DNA of 64,000 nucleotides from Microlunatus speluncae (lineage in GTDB: Bacteria > Actinomycetota > Actinomycetes > Propionibacteriales > Propionibacteriaceae). This document shows, in pieces, positions 5,721-53,453 of the stretch. The notes beneath the pieces were generated by a model. It saw only the letters and a list, made by a program, of their open reading frames with translations. It did not search any database and was not told the origin of the DNA. The stretch lies in NCBI RefSeq assembly GCF_009299835.1, contig NZ_VKCZ01000014.1, positions 1-64,000 on the forward strand, given 5' to 3'. A program made the translations under genes and the position numbers. Positions within the stretch are counted from its first letter, which is position 1, and the number at the start of each line of letters is the position of its first letter.

Positions 5721-6206
5721 GTGAACAAGGCTGAGTTGATTGAGGCGTTGTCGACTCACTATGAGGGCAACAAGGCCGAGGCAGCCAGGGCGCTGAACGC
5801 GGTGGTGCAGACCATCACCTACCAGACGGCGGGTGGCGAGAAGGTCTCGATCACCGGGTTCGGTGTCTTCGAGAAGGTCCACCGGTCGGCCCGCATGGTG
5901 CGCAATCCCCGGACCGGCGAGCGCAAGCGGGCCAAGGCCACGGCTGTCCCGCGTTTCCGGGCCGGCTCGGACCTGAAGGCCTTCGTTTCCGGCGCGAAGA
6001 AGGTGCCGAAGACGTCCGCCAAGAAGGCTGCTGCCAAGACCACCGCGACCGCCACCGTGGCCAAGAAGGCGGCTCCGGCGAAGAAGGTCGTGGCGAAGGC
6101 TCCGGCCAAGAAGGCGGCTCCGGCCAAGAAGGTCGTGGCGAAGAAGGCTCCGGCCAAGAAGACCGCGGCGAAGAAGGCTCCGGCGAAGCGCACCGCCAAG
6201 CGCTGA
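5721..6206 (+). CDS. hupB: HU-type nucleoid protein with lysine-rich tail
   Basis: 161 residues. Residues 1-90 are a canonical HU domain (MNKAELIEALSTHYEGNKAE; GFGVFEKVHRSARMVRNPRT, holding the DNA-binding beta-arm). Residues about 100-161 are a low-complexity tail of KKAAPAKKVVAK/KKAPAKK repeats, like the HupB (HLP/MDP1) tail of mycobacteria, which binds DNA and RNA and compacts the nucleoid. The start is GTG at 5721 with AAGGGAAG 5-12 bases upstream. Position after leuCD matches mycobacteria. The tail is encoded by near-repeated DNA (AAGAAGGCTCCGGC units), so copy number may vary between strains. Confidence 0.96.
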   Translation: MNKAELIEALSTHYEGNKAEAARALNAVVQTITYQTAGGEKVSITGFGVFEKVHRSARMVRNPRTGERKRAKATAVPRFRAGSDLKAFVSGAKKVPKTSAKKAAAKTTATATVAKKAAPAKKVVAKAPAKKAAPAKKVVAKKAPAKKTAAKKAPAKRTAKR

Positions 6207-39169: not shown

Positions 39170-42100
39170 TCAAGAAGCAGAGCCGGCGGCCGGGCGGATC
39201 CTCAACCCCTGGGGCGTCATCACGAATCCCGCGTCCTGAAGCGCTTTCCGGACCGGTTCGGATCCGAAAACATGATCACCATCGGCTCGTTGTACGGTGA
39301 GCTTGCCGAGCTGACCGTGCCGCACCGCCGCGGCCAATGCCCGCGCCGCGGGGGCCAGCACCTCCGGTCGATCGACGAAGCTGAGCAGCGTCCGGCCGCC
39401 GCGTTCGACGTAGAAGATCAACTGTCCGCCGACCAGCACCACCAGGGCACCGGCCTTGCGACCCGGCCGGTGACCGGCCCGCTCCGGCCAGCCGAGGGCC
39501 GCGCCGTACGGATTCGCCGGGTCGCACGCCGACAGCACCAGCGCCGCCGGCTCGGTCGGTTCGGCCGACGCCGCGCGCAACCGGTCCACCGCGCCGGGCA
39601 GGGCGAACTGGGCCGCCCCCAACCCCTCGATGAAGTAGCCGCGCCGGCACTGACCCGATTCCTCCAGCGTGGCCAGGGCGCGATAGGCGGCGCCGAAGCC
39701 ACCCTCGGTGCCCTCGGCGGTGACCGAACCGCGGGTCACCACGCCGTAGCGGTCCAGCCAGCCGAACACCTGGTCGGTGAACCTGGCCGACGCGCCGCGG
39801 GTCCGACCCGGATCCGGCGCCTGGTCCGCGGCCGCGGACTCGCCTCGCTCGATCAGCGACCAGCGGCCGGCGGTGGTGGGTGAGGCGTTGATCCGGGCCA
39901 CCACCCGGGCCCGGAGTTGGGCTCGCAACTGACCCCGATGGGTCCGGCTCCGCGGCGCCGGCCGGCTCCGGTGTGCCCCGCCGGTGACCCGGGCCCGGAC
40001 CGGCGCGAACGTGTCCCCGGTGATCAGGCCGGACCAGATCAGCTCCCACAGGGCGCTTTCATAGCCGGACGCCTCGTCGTCGTCACCGAGTCGCCGGGTC
40101 AGCTCGGTCAGGAAGGACGCGCCACCGGGCTGGAACGTGGAGAGCAACGCGACCGCCCGGTGGTCCTCGGGCTGCTGCTTGGCCGGCGGCGGCTCCATCC
40201 CCGGCAGCAGGAACCGGACCCAACCGTCCGAGTCGCCGAGCTGGCCGTCGCCGACCCAGCTGACCTCGCCGGCGGTGATCAACTGATCGAGCTGGGACGG
40301 CTGATAGTCGGCCACCCGGGCCGGCAGGATGATCGATTCGACCGCGCTCGCCGGCACCGGGTAGCCGGCCAGGGACTCCAGCGCGGTGAGCACGGCGTCG
40401 CTGCCGCGGGCCGGCGTGCCGACTCCGTGCCAGTCGATCAAGAAACGGGCGTAGGCGCCCTGCTCGACCGGCTCGACCTCGCGGCGCAGCAGGGCCAGGG
40501 TGCGCCGCTTGATCAACGCCAGCACCCGGTGGTGGCAGTACTGCCGCAGCTGCGACCGGTCCTCCTCCAGCTGGATGAACTGTCCGGCCACCACCGAGCC
40601 GTCGTCGATCAATCGGCGGCAGGCGTCCTCGACGGTGCCGAGCTCGAGCCCGTACCGGTCGGCGATGGTCTCGGCGACGAACGGGCCGTGTTGCCGGGCC
40701 CAGCGCAGCACCAGGTCGTCGATCGGCCGCGGCACCGGCTCGGTGAACGAGGCGGCGACTCCCGGCGGGACCGGGATTCCCAGCCCGTCCCGCAGCCGGG
40801 GCACATCCTCGACCACCGCGACCTGGTCGGTGCCGGCGATCCGCACCTCGACCAGCCGCCGCGCGGTGATCAACTCCTTGACCGCGCTCTCATGATCGAA
40901 CTCGGGACGTTCGGGATCGGGCCGGGTGCGCAGCGCCAGCTCGTCCAACCGGTACGGGCCGGCCGTGCGGATCAGGTCGTACACCTGCTCGACGGTGCCG
41001 GCCTGCCGCTCCTCGCTCAGCGCCTGAAGGTCGGCCTCACAGGCGGCGATCACTCCCGGATCGAGCAGCTGCTTCAGCCCGTCCTTGCCGAGCAACTCGG
41101 CCAGCAGGGTCGCGTCCAAGGACAACGCGGCGGCCTTCTTCTCGGCCAGCGGCACGTCACCCTCGTAGACGAAGGCGCCGACATAGCCGAACAGCAGCGA
41201 CCGGGCGAACGGCGACGGCTCGCTCGTCTCCACCTCGACCACCCGCAACTCGCGGCCCGCGATCGACTGCTGCACCTTGATCAACTCCGGCAGCTCGAAC
41301 ACGTCGGTCAGGCACTCCCGCATCGTCTCCAGCACGATCGGGAAATCCGGATACTTCGCTGCCACGCCGAGCAACTGGGCCGATCGCATCCGCTGCTGCC
41401 ACAGCGGTGACCGGGCCCGCGGATCGCGCCGGGGGAGCAGCAGCGCCCGCGCCGCGCACTCGCGGAACCGCGAGGCGAACAGGGCTGAGCCGCCGACCTC
41501 GTCGGTGACGATCTGCTCCAACGCCTCGGGATCGATGATGATCAACTCCGGCCCGGGCGGGTCGGATTCGGTGTCCGGGATCCGCAGGATGATCCCGTCG
41601 TTGGTGGCCGTGGCTTGCACCTCGGTGCCGTACCGCTCCCGGGCGGCGTGCTCGATCGCCAACGCCCACGGCGTGTGCACGCCCAGCCCCAGCGGGGAAT
41701 GCAGGCAGACCCGCCAGTCGCCGAGCTCGTCCCGGAACCGCTCGAAGATCACGGTCCGGTCGGTCGGCAACGCCCCGGTCGCCTGCTGCTGCTCGCCGAG
41801 ATAGCCGATCAGGTTGCGGGCCGCATAGTCGTCCAGCCCGGCGCCCTGCAGCCGGCCGGTCGCCTGCTCGGGGTCGAGGCCGGCCAGCTCGCGGACGAAG
41901 CCGCCGAATGCGACCCCGAGCTCGGCCGGCCGGGCCGGCGCGTCGCCCTTCCAGAACGGCAGCCGCCCCGGCTGGCCGGGAGCGGGGGTGACCAGCACCT
42001 GGTCGTGGGTGATCTGTTCCACCCGCCAGCTGGTGGTGCCGAGGGTGAACACGTCACCCACCCGGGTCTCGTACACCATCTCTTCGTCGAGCTCACCGAC

Positions 42101-44002
42101 GCGGCGCCCCGGCGTCGACGATTCGCCGGCCAGGAAGACACCGAACAGGCCGCGGTCCGGGATGGTGCCGCCGGACGTGACGGCCAGCCGTTGGGCGCCG
42201 GGCCGGGCGCTGAGCTGTCCCGTGTCCCGCTGCCAGACCAGCCGCGGCCGCAGCTCGGCGAAATCCTCCGACGGATAGCGCCCGCTGAGCATGTCGAGGA
42301 CGGCGTCGAACGCGCTCCGCGGCAGGTCGGCGAAGTTGGCCGCCCGCCGCATCAGTTGGTAGACGTCGTCGGCCGCAACGTCGCCACCGGCGGCGATCGC
42401 CACGATCTGCTGGGCCAGCACGTCCAGCGGATTGCGCAGCTCGGCGACGGCCTCGATCGCGCCGGCCCGCATCCGTTCCACCACCACCGTCGACTCGATC
42501 AGGTCGCCCCGGTGGTTGGGGAAGAACACCCCGCGCGACACCGCGCCGACCTGGTGCCCGGCCCGGCCGACCCGCTGCAGCCCGCTGGCCACCGACGGCG
42601 GCGACTCGACCTGGACCACCAGGTCGACGGTGCCCATGTCGATGCCCAGCTCGAGCGAGGAGGTGGCGACCACACAGGGCAGCCGGCCCGACTTGAGGTC
42701 GTCCTCGATCTGGGCTCGCTGCTCCTTGCTGACCGAACCATGGTGGGCCCGGGCGACGATCGGCGCGGCCGACCCGTCCCGGCCCGCGGAGGAGCCGGAC
42801 TGGGCCATGATCTCGGCCGGAGGTTCGTGGGGCTCGGCGGCCTCGCCGAGCCGCTCGGCGTGCAGCTCGTTGAGATGGGCGGTCAGTCGTTCGGCCAGCC
42901 GGCGGGAGTTGGCGAAGACCAGCGTGGTGCGGTGCCGGCCGATCAGGTCGAGGATCTTGCTCTCCACATGCGGCCAGATCGAGGGCGGTCGGCGGTTCTC
43001 CTCCGGCTCCAGGTCCTCGACCGGGTCCGGCTGGCGCGGCGCGGCGGCCGCCTGGAGGTCGCTCATGTCCTCGATCGGGACCACGAGCTCGAGCTGCCAC
43101 GACTTCTGCGCCGGGGGAGCGACGATCGTCACCGGGTCGGTGCCGCCGAGATAGCGGGCGACCCGCTCCGGTGGGCGAACCGTCGCGGACAGCCCGATCC
43201 GCTGCAGCCGGGCTGCCGGTCGGGCTTGCCCTTCGACAGGCTCAGGGGACGTCGGTGGGGTGGGCTCAGGGGACGTGGATGGGGTGGGCTCAGGGGACGT
43301 GGATGGGGTGGGCTCAGGGGACGTGGATGGGGTGGGCTCGGGGGACGTGGATGGGGTGGGCTCAGGGGACGTGGATGGGGTGGGCTCGGGGGGCGAACTG
43401 ATCAGTTCCTGCAGCCGCTCCAACGACACCGCCAGGTGGGCGCCGCGTTTGGTCCCGGCCAGCGAGTGCACCTCGTCGATGATCACCGTACGCACCGAGG
43501 CCAGCGTGTCCCGGGCGGCGGAGGTCAACATCAGGAACAGCGATTCGGGCGTGGTGATCATGATGTCCGGCGGGCGGGTGGCCAGCTTCCGCCGGTCCGC
43601 GGCGCTGGTGTCGCCGGACCGGATGCCGACCGTCACCCCCGGCATCGGCTCGCCCAGCCGGCCCGCGGCCCGGCCGATCCCGGCCAGCGGTGCCCGCAGG
43701 TTGCGTTCGACGTCGACGGCCAGCGCCTTCAGCGGTGATACGTACAACACCCGGCAGCGTTCCTTGGCTGGCGGCTCGGGCTCCCGGATCAGGCCGTCCA
43801 GCGCCCACAGGAACGCGGCCAGCGTCTTGCCCGACCCGGTCGGCGCGATCACCAACGCGTTTTCCCCGGACGAGATCGCCGACCAGGCTCCCGCCTGCGC
43901 CGCCGTCGGCTCGGCGAAGACGTCGCGGAACCAGGCCGCGGTCGCCGGAGCGAACGCGGCCAGCGGATCTACGCGCCGGGAAGCCACGGAACCATCCTGC
44001 AC
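39170..44002 (-). CDS. lhr: ATP-dependent helicase Lhr with an internal minisatellite-encoded insert
   Basis: 1610 residues, the long actinobacterial Lhr of superfamily 2, a 3'-5' helicase for DNA and DNA:RNA linked to repair. Walker A is APTGSGKT (residues 53-60), the DEVH box is at about residue 175, and the core motifs TTPESLFLML, LVFANSRRLAERL and VQVESPPSVASGLQRVGRAG follow. Winged-helix and C-terminal Lhr domains fill the rest. At residues about 203-256, between the DEVH motif and LSATVRPPERVA, lies a repeat of SPEPTPST units ending SPEPVEGQ. It is encoded by a dispersed repeat core and a 24-bp tandem array. The start MQDGSVASRR may alternatively be the GTG at codon 6. Confidence 0.95.
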   Translation of the reverse strand: MQDGSVASRRVDPLAAFAPATAAWFRDVFAEPTAAQAGAWSAISSGENALVIAPTGSGKTLAAFLWALDGLIREPEPPAKERCRVLYVSPLKALAVDVERNLRAPLAGIGRAAGRLGEPMPGVTVGIRSGDTSAADRRKLATRPPDIMITTPESLFLMLTSAARDTLASVRTVIIDEVHSLAGTKRGAHLAVSLERLQELISSPPEPTPSTSPEPTPSTSPEPTPSTSPEPTPSTSPEPTPSTSPEPTPPTSPEPVEGQARPAARLQRIGLSATVRPPERVARYLGGTDPVTIVAPPAQKSWQLELVVPIEDMSDLQAAAAPRQPDPVEDLEPEENRRPPSIWPHVESKILDLIGRHRTTLVFANSRRLAERLTAHLNELHAERLGEAAEPHEPPAEIMAQSGSSAGRDGSAAPIVARAHHGSVSKEQRAQIEDDLKSGRLPCVVATSSLELGIDMGTVDLVVQVESPPSVASGLQRVGRAGHQVGAVSRGVFFPNHRGDLIESTVVVERMRAGAIEAVAELRNPLDVLAQQIVAIAAGGDVAADDVYQLMRRAANFADLPRSAFDAVLDMLSGRYPSEDFAELRPRLVWQRDTGQLSARPGAQRLAVTSGGTIPDRGLFGVFLAGESSTPGRRVGELDEEMVYETRVGDVFTLGTTSWRVEQITHDQVLVTPAPGQPGRLPFWKGDAPARPAELGVAFGGFVRELAGLDPEQATGRLQGAGLDDYAARNLIGYLGEQQQATGALPTDRTVIFERFRDELGDWRVCLHSPLGLGVHTPWALAIEHAARERYGTEVQATATNDGIILRIPDTESDPPGPELIIIDPEALEQIVTDEVGGSALFASRFRECAARALLLPRRDPRARSPLWQQRMRSAQLLGVAAKYPDFPIVLETMRECLTDVFELPELIKVQQSIAGRELRVVEVETSEPSPFARSLLFGYVGAFVYEGDVPLAEKKAAALSLDATLLAELLGKDGLKQLLDPGVIAACEADLQALSEERQAGTVEQVYDLIRTAGPYRLDELALRTRPDPERPEFDHESAVKELITARRLVEVRIAGTDQVAVVEDVPRLRDGLGIPVPPGVAASFTEPVPRPIDDLVLRWARQHGPFVAETIADRYGLELGTVEDACRRLIDDGSVVAGQFIQLEEDRSQLRQYCHHRVLALIKRRTLALLRREVEPVEQGAYARFLIDWHGVGTPARGSDAVLTALESLAGYPVPASAVESIILPARVADYQPSQLDQLITAGEVSWVGDGQLGDSDGWVRFLLPGMEPPPAKQQPEDHRAVALLSTFQPGGASFLTELTRRLGDDDEASGYESALWELIWSGLITGDTFAPVRARVTGGAHRSRPAPRSRTHRGQLRAQLRARVVARINASPTTAGRWSLIERGESAAADQAPDPGRTRGASARFTDQVFGWLDRYGVVTRGSVTAEGTEGGFGAAYRALATLEESGQCRRGYFIEGLGAAQFALPGAVDRLRAASAEPTEPAALVLSACDPANPYGAALGWPERAGHRPGRKAGALVVLVGGQLIFYVERGGRTLLSFVDRPEVLAPAARALAAAVRHGQLGKLTVQRADGDHVFGSEPVRKALQDAGFVMTPQGLRIRPAAGSAS
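43231..43393 (-). repeat. REP core plus 24-bp minisatellite inside lhr
   Basis: A REP core (CTTCGACAGGCTCAGGGGAC, 43231-43250) is followed by a tandem array of TGGGCTCAGGGGACGTGGAT plus GGGG. Full units lie at 43261-43284, 43285-43308, 43309-43332, 43333-43356 and 43357-43380, with a degenerate first unit at 43237-43260 and a partial one from 43381. The 24-bp period keeps the lhr frame and encodes eight residues (SPEPTPST). Units differ only by single bases, so the expansion is recent. Confidence 0.9.
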
Positions 44003-47480: not shown

Positions 47481-48434
47481 GTGAGCGCTCCCGGCGTCCT
47501 GAGCCTGTCGAAGGACAACCCTTCGACAGGCTCAGGGAACGGAATCCCTCGGCGCCGCCGGCTGCCCCGACTACTGCTCAGCCGGCCGGCGACGGTGATC
47601 AGCCTGGTCTTCCTGACCTTGCTGGTGCTGATGGCGATCTTCGCCCCGCTGCTGACGGCGATCTCGGGTCAGGACCCGTACCGGTTCGACGAGACCGCGA
47701 TCGATCCGAACCTGGGCGGCCTGCCGATCGGCCCGCTGGGCGGGATCGGCCCTGAGCACTGGTTCGGCGTCGAACCGCTGAACGGCCGGGACCTGTTCGC
47801 CCGGATCGCTTACGGGGCACGGTTCTCGCTCAGCATCGCGGTGCTGGCGACGATCGTGACGACGGCGATCGGGGTGCTGCTCGGCACCCTGGCCGGCTAC
47901 TTCGGCGGCCTGGTCGACCAGGTGATCGGCCGGGTGATGGACTTCCTGATGGCCTTCCCGTCGCTGATCTTTATGATCGCGATCCTGTCGGCGGTGCCGG
48001 AGGCCAACCGGATGCTGATGTTGATCATCGTGCTCAGCCTGTTCGGCTGGCCGCAGCTGGGCCGGGTGGTCCGGTCCCAGGCGATGTCGGTACGTCAGCG
48101 CGAGTTCGTCGAGGCGGCAGTGGCCTCCGGGGCCGGTCGGGCCCGGATCATCTTCGCCGAGGTGATCCCGAACCTGTCCGGAACGATCATCGTGATCGCC
48201 ACGCTGATGTTGCCGCAGTTCATCGCCACCGAAGCCGGGCTGAGCTTCCTCGGCGTCGGCGTCCGGCCGCCGGATCCGTCCTGGGGCCAGATGATCTCCG
48301 CCGCCGTCCAGTGGTATCAGACCAACCCGATGTTCTTCGCCATCCCGGGCCTGTTCCTGACCTGCACCGTGCTCTCCTGCATGGTCGTCGGTGATCACGT
48401 ACAACGGATCTTCGCCCGGCGGGAGGGGGTGTAG
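47481..48434 (+). CDS. Peptide ABC transporter permease, DppC/OppC type, with repeat-derived N-terminus
   Basis: About 317 residues from GTG 47481, five bases after the binding-protein stop. The N-terminal cytoplasmic stretch VLSLSKDNPSTGSGNGI (residues about 6-22) is encoded by two inverted REP cores, not by typical permease sequence. Then come the first membrane segment (VISLVFLTLLVLMAIFAPLL), the DppC-type periplasmic loop (GIGPEHWFGVEPLNGRDLFA), and the EAA loop EFVEAAVASGAGRARIIFAE. It ends with GLSFLGVGVRPPDPSWGQMI. Order permease C before B is inverted relative to most dpp operons. If a later start were used the repeat would be untranslated. Confidence 0.88.
   Translation: MSAPGVLSLSKDNPSTGSGNGIPRRRRLPRLLLSRPATVISLVFLTLLVLMAIFAPLLTAISGQDPYRFDETAIDPNLGGLPIGPLGGIGPEHWFGVEPLNGRDLFARIAYGARFSLSIAVLATIVTTAIGVLLGTLAGYFGGLVDQVIGRVMDFLMAFPSLIFMIAILSAVPEANRMLMLIIVLSLFGWPQLGRVVRSQAMSVRQREFVEAAVASGAGRARIIFAEVIPNLSGTIIVIATLMLPQFIATEAGLSFLGVGVRPPDPSWGQMISAAVQWYQTNPMFFAIPGLFLTCTVLSCMVVGDHVQRIFARREGV
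47498..47536 (+). repeat. Perfect 17-bp inverted pair of REP cores in the dppC-like start region
   Basis: CCTGAGCCTGTCGAAGG (47498-47514) and CCTTCGACAGGCTCAGG (47520-47536) are exact reverse complements with a five-base loop ACAAC. The hairpin begins 15 bases after the GTG start codon of the permease. In mRNA it would form a stable stem close to the ribosome-binding region, so it may lower translation of the permease relative to the abundant binding protein. Confidence 0.85.
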
Positions 48435-52830: not shown

Positions 52831-52988
52831 GCCTGCCGCCTTGTTCGTTCCCTGAGCCTGTCGAAGGGCAAGCCAGGCGGTCCCCTCCGGCTTCGGCCGA
52901 CGGCCGAAAGACGCGCCAAGGACGGGCGGGTCATGGCGTCGCCTGGGAATCCCGGCCGGGTCTCGGTTGCGCTGCCCCCGGGATCATC

Positions 52989-53043
52989 GACTGTGACGTT
53001 TCCCGGCCGTTCAGTGCCGATCGAGCCGGGAAACCTCACAGTC
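52989..53043. repeat. Hairpin inside the composite element, 19-bp arms with one mismatch
   Basis: GACTGTGACGTTTCCCGGC (52989-53007) pairs with 53025-53043 except for one C/G position; the loop has 17 bases. A similar half site (GGGAAACGTCAC, read on the other strand) occurs at about 107-125, next to the window-edge insertion sequence. Confidence 0.7.
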
Positions 53044-53114
53044 GCTGGTCCCGCCAACCGACCAGCGCACACCGTGCCGACCTCAAGGTCGCAGGCCACC
53101 CCGGACCGGACATT

Positions 53115-53239
53115 TCTCCACCTGTGGCGACAAACGACCCGCCGACACGGCCCTGACTGGAGCGTTTCTCTACCTGTGGTGACAAACGACCCGCCGACTC
53201 GGCCCTGACTGGACTATTTCTCTACCTGTGGCGACTTCC
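53115..53239. repeat. Direct repeats of about 50 bp (2.5 copies) inside the composite element
   Basis: Each unit starts TTTCTCTACCTGTGGCGACA, continues AACGACCCGCCGAC-x-CGG and ends CCCTGACTGGA. Unit starts are at about 53115, 53163 and 53215; the third is cut after GTGGCGACTTCC. The same unit order appears on the other strand at 22154-22250. With period about 50 bp, variable bases and no conserved spacer length, this is not a CRISPR. Confidence 0.75.
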
Positions 53240-53453
53240 GCACTCCTGACCCGGCCGCCAATCCACGGACCGCCATGACCCGCCCGTCCTTTGGCGCGTC
53301 CTTCCGGCCGTCAGGCCGAAACCGGAGGGGACACAGCCCGGCTTGCCCTTCGACAGGCTCAGGGAACGAACAAGCCGGCAGGCTCGGGGAACGAACACCC
53401 TGGCCGCCCAGCCCGAACAGGAATCGCGACGCCGCGGATCCGGGCACGCGGCA

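Follow-up and report, generated by a model that had tools for sequence, protein, structure and literature searches.

The window that we analysed is the whole 64,000-nucleotide stretch at the start of contig C1 of the soil bacterium Microlunatus speluncae (6.79-Mb genome, a draft of 21 contigs with 7.8% estimated contamination; G000 below). Its minus strand carries lhr, and within this gene six 24-bp tandem units adjoin, and partly overlap, a copy of a dispersed REP-like element. The features are as follows.

39170 to 44002, minus strand: lhr, encoding a large helicase-related protein of 1610 aa (open reading frame, GTG start as listed).
43181 to 43189, minus strand: helicase motif III, SAT (from the translation; invariant in a 21-row alignment).
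43222 to 43251, plus strand: intact dispersed REP-like element, GGGCTTGCCCTTCGACAGGCTCAGGGGACG, whose 17-bp core has 442 exact copies in the genome.
43239 to 43262, plus strand: unit 1, GGCTCAGGGGACGTCGGTGGGGTG, the 3' half of the element (13 bp) and an 11-bp spacer, TCGGTGGGGTG (unit-by-unit reading).
43263 to 43382, plus strand: units 2-6, GGCTCAGGGGACGTGGATGGGGTG, five near-identical 24-bp copies with the spacer TGGATGGGGTG (TRF and unit-by-unit reading).
43383 to 43395, plus strand: degenerate terminal half core, GGCTCGGGGGGCG, the seventh half core and the end of the array (unit-by-unit reading).
43466 to 43477, minus strand: helicase motif II, DEVH (from the translation; D, E and H are the same in all 21 rows of the alignment).

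By its domains the product belongs to the Lhr proteins: the SF2 core, the Lhr winged-helix domains and the DEAD-associated domain are all recognized, by Pfam (DEAD, Helicase_C, WH_Lhr, DEAD_assoc and WH2-4_Lhr) and by matches to the PDB. The top PDB matches are 7lhl and 5v9x, and the alignment to 7lhl, which we take to be mycobacterial Lhr, runs to residue 205 and resumes at 266. Element and array lengthen the loop that joins motifs II and III; the initial annotation had put the repeats between DEVH and the next helicase motif, and the insert indeed maps between DEVH and SAT. The linker here is 70 residues long, and 91 of the 92 resolved Lhr linkers are 7-26 residues (110 loci were scanned, 18 of them unresolvable; the 92 include duplicate loci of single genes and the window's own lhr). 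An insert of equal length and sequence in distant genera had been named as a refutation, and none of equal length appeared among the other resolved linkers; the length difference is one between species only. Within the genus, 18 congeners have a full Lhr match: in 13, read directly, the linker has 9-26 residues, and in the remaining five the aligned Lhr blocks lie 6-18 bp apart. A full Lhr match was not found in the nineteenth congener, G019. AlphaFold, run on residues 14-520 with the 21-row alignment (mean pLDDT 75.3), gives the insert a pLDDT of 43-51, the level to be expected of a disordered loop, and the helix and strand on either side of it about 90.

Read on the lhr strand, the element encodes SPEPVEGQ, as first reported, and its reverse complement starts with CGTC. 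TRF finds a period of 24, 6.4 copies and a 96% match at 43239-43392, and tandem units of such high identity qualify as a minisatellite. Units 2-6 encode SPEPTPST repeats on the minus strand; unit 5 differs from the others by one A-to-G. The first description, of five near-identical units with degenerate ends, thus agrees with both TRF and the unit-by-unit reading, and the array observation is confirmed. Each of the six units, the last of which ends at 43382, opens with the 3' half of the element, GGCTCAGGGGACG (13 bp), a longer identity than the CAGGGGACG to which attention had been drawn. This identity bears out the proposal that the array derives from the core, as do 34 other arrays of the same plan in the genome and four orthologous sites in Microlunatus parietis that carry the element uniterated (both described below), and that interpretation is supported. 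A consistent target-site duplication was not borne out: a 9-bp repeat flanks an array in M. parietis (below), but the CTGCAGCCG repeat on the two sides of the lhr insert shares bases with the codons for LERL and LQRIGL, which are conserved, and is taken as coincidence.

The element itself is far from a chance occurrence, since its 17-bp core, CCTTCGACAGGCTCAGG, compares at 442 exact copies with none for a reversed control pattern; the family is thus both dispersed and of high copy number. The core is carried by 14 of 20 Microlunatus genomes, this one included. In form it resembles the CGTC-tagged REPs, which are short dispersed imperfect palindromes with the tag CGTC (or TGTC/CCTC), a stem of 8-9 bp and a loop of 4-5 bases (Di Nocera et al. 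2013, PMC3733652): it, too, is a short dispersed imperfect palindrome, with CGTC at one end of the lhr copy and with copies inside genes. Its stem, however, is weaker. The 37-nt forms fold at about -6 kcal/mol (z of -1.1 and -1.3) into weak, partial stems, and the 30-nt forms at -1.7 kcal/mol (positive z). On these values a strong hairpin is not borne out as the cause. Nor is CGTC, found on the reverse complement of the lhr copy, the usual tag: the most frequent variants have CGTT (GAACG follows at least 31 of the 53 cores found in 580 kb), a tag that PMC3733652 does not name. Because of the weak hairpin and the CGTT tag we call the element 'REP-like', despite the resemblance. The Y1_Tnp domain gave no match in any of the 20 Microlunatus genomes, this one included, in a search that was positive in five of 14 control genomes; its absence speaks against a mobiliser of the RAYT type, which we rejected. 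CGTC-tagged REPs are said to lack a dedicated transposase (PMC3733652).

Elements also occur in pairs in the window. At 47498-47536, an inverted pair lies right after a binding-protein gene, and the downstream open reading frame reads through it, LSLSKDNPSTGSGN. At 52851-53363, a segment with a 52-bp tandem repeat (53100-53235) is enclosed by two elements of opposite orientation, some 500 bp from each other. Elsewhere, nested tandem repeats of 15, 30 and 45 bp at 6059-6200, rich in GGCCAAGAAG, likely encode a basic tail rich in Lys, Ala and Pro.

The plan of the lhr array was read individually at 35 loci in this genome and at nine in the congener G006. It comprises an intact element followed by extra 3' halves, and the spacers between them recur inside each locus and vary from one locus to the next. 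An array has 1-6 extra 3' halves in G000 and up to seven in G006, in which whole copies also occur. The loci were chosen by pattern searches, and the array-reading script considers only what follows an intact core. The pattern of an element with a further 3' half matches 52 times here, 27 times in G006 and 25 times in G008, against none in controls. It is present in nine of the 20 Microlunatus genomes and, across the Propionibacteriaceae, in 18 of 198 genomes (own included) and six of 29 genera, with none in the control; whole-element repeats are included in these counts. TRF, run on 580 kb, had eight of 41 arrays flagged as element-containing, of which two (66361 and 535737) proved false on reading, leaving six. 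The lhr array is one case of a recurrent process that iterates the 3' half of the element together with locus-specific flank. An error of assembly or sequencing might be thought to have inflated it, as 154 bp nears short-read length and the genome is a draft of many contigs with some estimated contamination. But the units carry locus-specific and unit-specific substitutions, and the same layout is seen at many loci, also in congeners assembled as a single contig (e.g. G008 and G009), and we consider such an error extremely improbable.

Other tandem repeats in the genome differ in kind. Whole-element arrays, of 40-41 bp period and 7-8 copies, occur at G000:C11:91722-92030 and C16:512802-513063; their mode differs from that of the half-element arrays. 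A 78-bp repeat at G000:C1:535737-536076 (L265; 4.4 copies, 100% match) proved on reading to be without the element.

The half-element arrays are polar. Because the array-reading script looks only downstream of the core, this claim rests on a search for the mirror arrangement, in which a 5' half lies ahead of the element: it was absent from the 28 matches, every one of them a whole element and one bearing a substitution. Where duplication begins was gauged from 40 second copies that were retrieved through their final eight bases alone and are not all independent loci. Twenty-one match the element exactly to GCTC or GGCTC, that is, to its midpoint; nine extend to approximately full length; and ten end in between or elsewhere, a division in which whole-element cases are undercounted because the pattern misses whole-element periods of 40 or more. 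A second breakpoint cluster, at CGACAG, accounts for six of the 40. The duplicated block thus starts most often at the element midpoint. What is duplicated is suggested by the bases that follow the last half core: they resemble the first spacer of their own locus more than the spacers of other loci (identity 0.499 versus 0.348 after shuffling; 0 of 5000 shuffles; n = 35). As the first spacer bases may be element tail, the comparison was repeated with six bases skipped, and the resemblance persisted (0.411 versus 0.308; 2 of 5000 shuffles; n = 32). Such a relic of the locus's own spacer is as predicted by tandem duplication of a half-element with its flank. In lhr itself there is no relic after the last core (0 of 11 matches). 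At five sites that could be compared with M. parietis, the spacers resemble the orthologous flank no more than they do the other flanks (the observed score is equalled or exceeded in 94 of 120 permutations). The orthologous flank was accordingly rejected as a demonstrated source, and because this comparison was negative, a flank origin of the spacers rests on the within-genome test.

M. parietis (G009) is the closest named relative by Lhr, at 86-87% identity. Eleven of the listed array loci fall within the syntenic stretches that we compared, and six have a resolvable partner site. At lhr the M. parietis site is empty: between flanking alignments of 84-87% identity lie 190 bp here and 8 bp there. 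The two species share the element at five sites. At four of these (L181, L187, L190 and L204), it is iterated here and uniterated in M. parietis, where at L190 and L204 it forms an inverted pair. The fifth, L179, is ambiguous because M. parietis carries a degenerate second copy there. In this comparison of two species, element first and array second is the simplest order; loss of arrays in M. parietis, as an alternative to gain here, would be less simple. A reverse case exists as well: M. parietis has a 24-bp half-element array of its own, AGCTCAGGGAGCGTTGTGGTGGTG (L247; G009:C1, approximately 527610-527712), at a TGA/ATG gene overlap, and the same site is empty in the window's genome. The array is flanked by a 9-bp direct repeat, CATGGCTGA, which preserves both overlapping genes, and the empty site does not contain the spacer of the array.

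These features of L247, together with the 3' polarity of arrays, could be taken to mean that arrays arrive ready-made, their iterated tails produced by repeated copying of the 3' half during mobilisation. Against this, the element is uniterated at four shared sites in M. parietis, the spacer relic past the last core fits ordinary tandem duplication, and the 9-bp repeat sits on a stop/start overlap that needs duplication if both genes are to be kept. We judge a ready-made origin unlikely. The two species also differ at G000:C1:150594-151100 (L226), where about 500 bp between inverted elements, holding a large inverted repeat, are missing in M. parietis.

Nine arrays in G000 are clearly coding: those of lhr, L181, L182, L187, L189, L190, L192, L199 and L202. 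'Coding' here means codon periodicity around the array in one open frame with a score of at least 0.45, a cut-off chosen after the scores had been viewed; L189, at 0.48, is the weakest. Unit distances are all multiples of three in each of the nine, compared with nine of the 26 others (p = 0.001), the latter proportion being near the expected one third. L200, an array seemingly in frame inside what is presumably an enzyme of the trehalose-synthesis type, falls below the cut-off and was counted with the others; reassigned to the coding class, it changes the figures to 10 of 10 and 8 of 25 (p = 0.0003). The test leaves out the nine G006 loci, one of which, L215, scored 0.50 with a period of 21. 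Filtering of array growth by reading frame is thus supported statistically, in keeping with the earlier remark that a 24-bp unit, divisible by three, keeps the frame.

For five of the eight coding loci besides lhr, Pfam shows clearly where the array sits: one is inside a glycosyltransferase, one in the linker of a 2-oxoacid dehydrogenase E2, one between two ABC ATPases, one inside PhnH, and one between an FAA hydrolase and an RraA domain. L189 matches DUF5605, L199 has only a below-cut-off match, and L181 has no Pfam match. CGTC-tagged REPs occur inside genes, many of them for replication and repair (PMC3733652). In contrast to the emphasis on repair genes there, only one of the nine coding arrays here is in a repair gene, so repair genes do not stand out.

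The lhr array, in frame and homogeneous, might instead owe its presence to selection for a functional, Pro-rich spacer in Lhr, the element being incidental; Pro/Ser/Thr repeats are typical flexible linkers. Nearly all resolved Lhr linkers are short, however, and the other coding arrays encode different peptides (e.g. AAQGTNKP, FPEPTTAP and GTEEAAQ) in different frames of unrelated proteins; moreover, 26 of the 35 arrays lack a clear coding signal on both sides. Selection for the linker therefore seems highly unlikely to us.

The best explanation is, with good probability, a tandem duplication with one end at the element midpoint, followed by slippage and filtered by reading frame. It is grounded in what was observed: the element is absent at lhr in M. 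parietis, it stands there without an array at four other shared loci, iteration is polar towards the 3' half, and coding arrays are biased in frame. After the split from M. parietis, a REP-like element would have entered the loop that connects Lhr motifs II and III. The stretch from its midpoint through its 3' half, with about 11 bp of adjoining DNA, would then have been duplicated in tandem, one end of such duplications lying mostly at the midpoint just after TTCGACA and the other some 6-15 bp beyond the 3' end. Replication slippage or unequal recombination between the 24-bp direct repeats could have multiplied them to six units; we infer slippage as the multiplying step. Purifying selection on lhr would have removed lengths that are not multiples of three, and a disordered Pro/Ser/Thr linker would be tolerated in this surface loop, the insert being presumably neutral for Lhr.

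The midpoint breakpoint may stem from the weak hairpin or from G-rich, possibly quadruplex-forming units, both of them candidates. Read on the element strand, spacers of half-type arrays have more G than C in 58 of 70 cases and less in seven, against 15 and 15 of 36 for the sequences after single elements (p = 6e-5), although the sets are unmatched, the arrays spanning 15 genomes and the single-element control two. The 70 are those kept from 86 strings, chosen by hand among the matches listed, after spacers ending in GACA had been dropped; whole-element repeats and repeats of one array are excluded. In the half-type arrays of G000 alone, G exceeds C in 15 of 20 and falls below it in three. By a G4Hunter-type score, a fraction of 0.0003 of the 150-base windows in the 64 kb reach the value of the lhr array. 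Quadruplex-assisted slippage is accordingly a candidate for what drives growth, and not a result.

Parallels exist in several known systems. MIRU-VNTR loci of mycobacteria are dispersed repeats turned tandem minisatellites in actinobacteria, as here, but their units are longer and repeat whole elements, whereas ours are shorter half-elements; we know of no half-element polarity in them. Clusters are rare for CGTC-tagged REPs, although REP clusters encoding 43-82 aa are described in two species, and the GTAG class shows tandem reiteration of units or dimers with flanking DNA (PMC3733652); here, unlike in the CGTC elements, the 3' half is iterated, and on one side only. REPINs also are dispersed repeats whose tandem clusters take in flanking sequence, but there whole REPINs are repeated, and three of the clusters have RAYT transposase genes as neighbours (Bertels and Rainey 2011, PMC3116915), whereas half-elements are iterated here, in a genus with no Y1_Tnp match in 20 genomes. 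Rickettsia palindromic elements are in-frame insertions in genes that likely encode functional proteins; no minisatellite growth from a 3' half, as seen here, is known to us from their description in PMC3733652. The words Microlunatus and Actinobacteria are absent from the main text of that paper. The literature that we searched by sequence held no match to the core, searches for REPs together with Microlunatus gave nothing relevant among the papers listed, and no description of half-element arrays was found in the portions of the literature searched. Polar, frame-filtered iteration of half-elements is a new form of the known clustering of REPs.

The loci provide before-and-after snapshots of the birth of a tandem repeat in a bacterial gene: no element, element alone, element with one further half, and an array of six units. 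The polarity of the arrays constrains the mechanism by which they arise, and dispersed repeats are seen to supply proteins with in-frame linkers. More tentatively, with somewhat less than an even chance in our estimation, the element midpoint could be a duplication hotspot, at which a hairpin-processing or nicking activity and the G-rich neighbouring DNA cut or restart copying and so convert the 3' half and its flank into a growing array. Across the genomes of the Propionibacteriaceae, the family would then generate expandable in-frame linkers for proteins as well as polymorphic loci. Independently of such a hotspot, arrays that prove variable would serve as typing markers for these bacteria.
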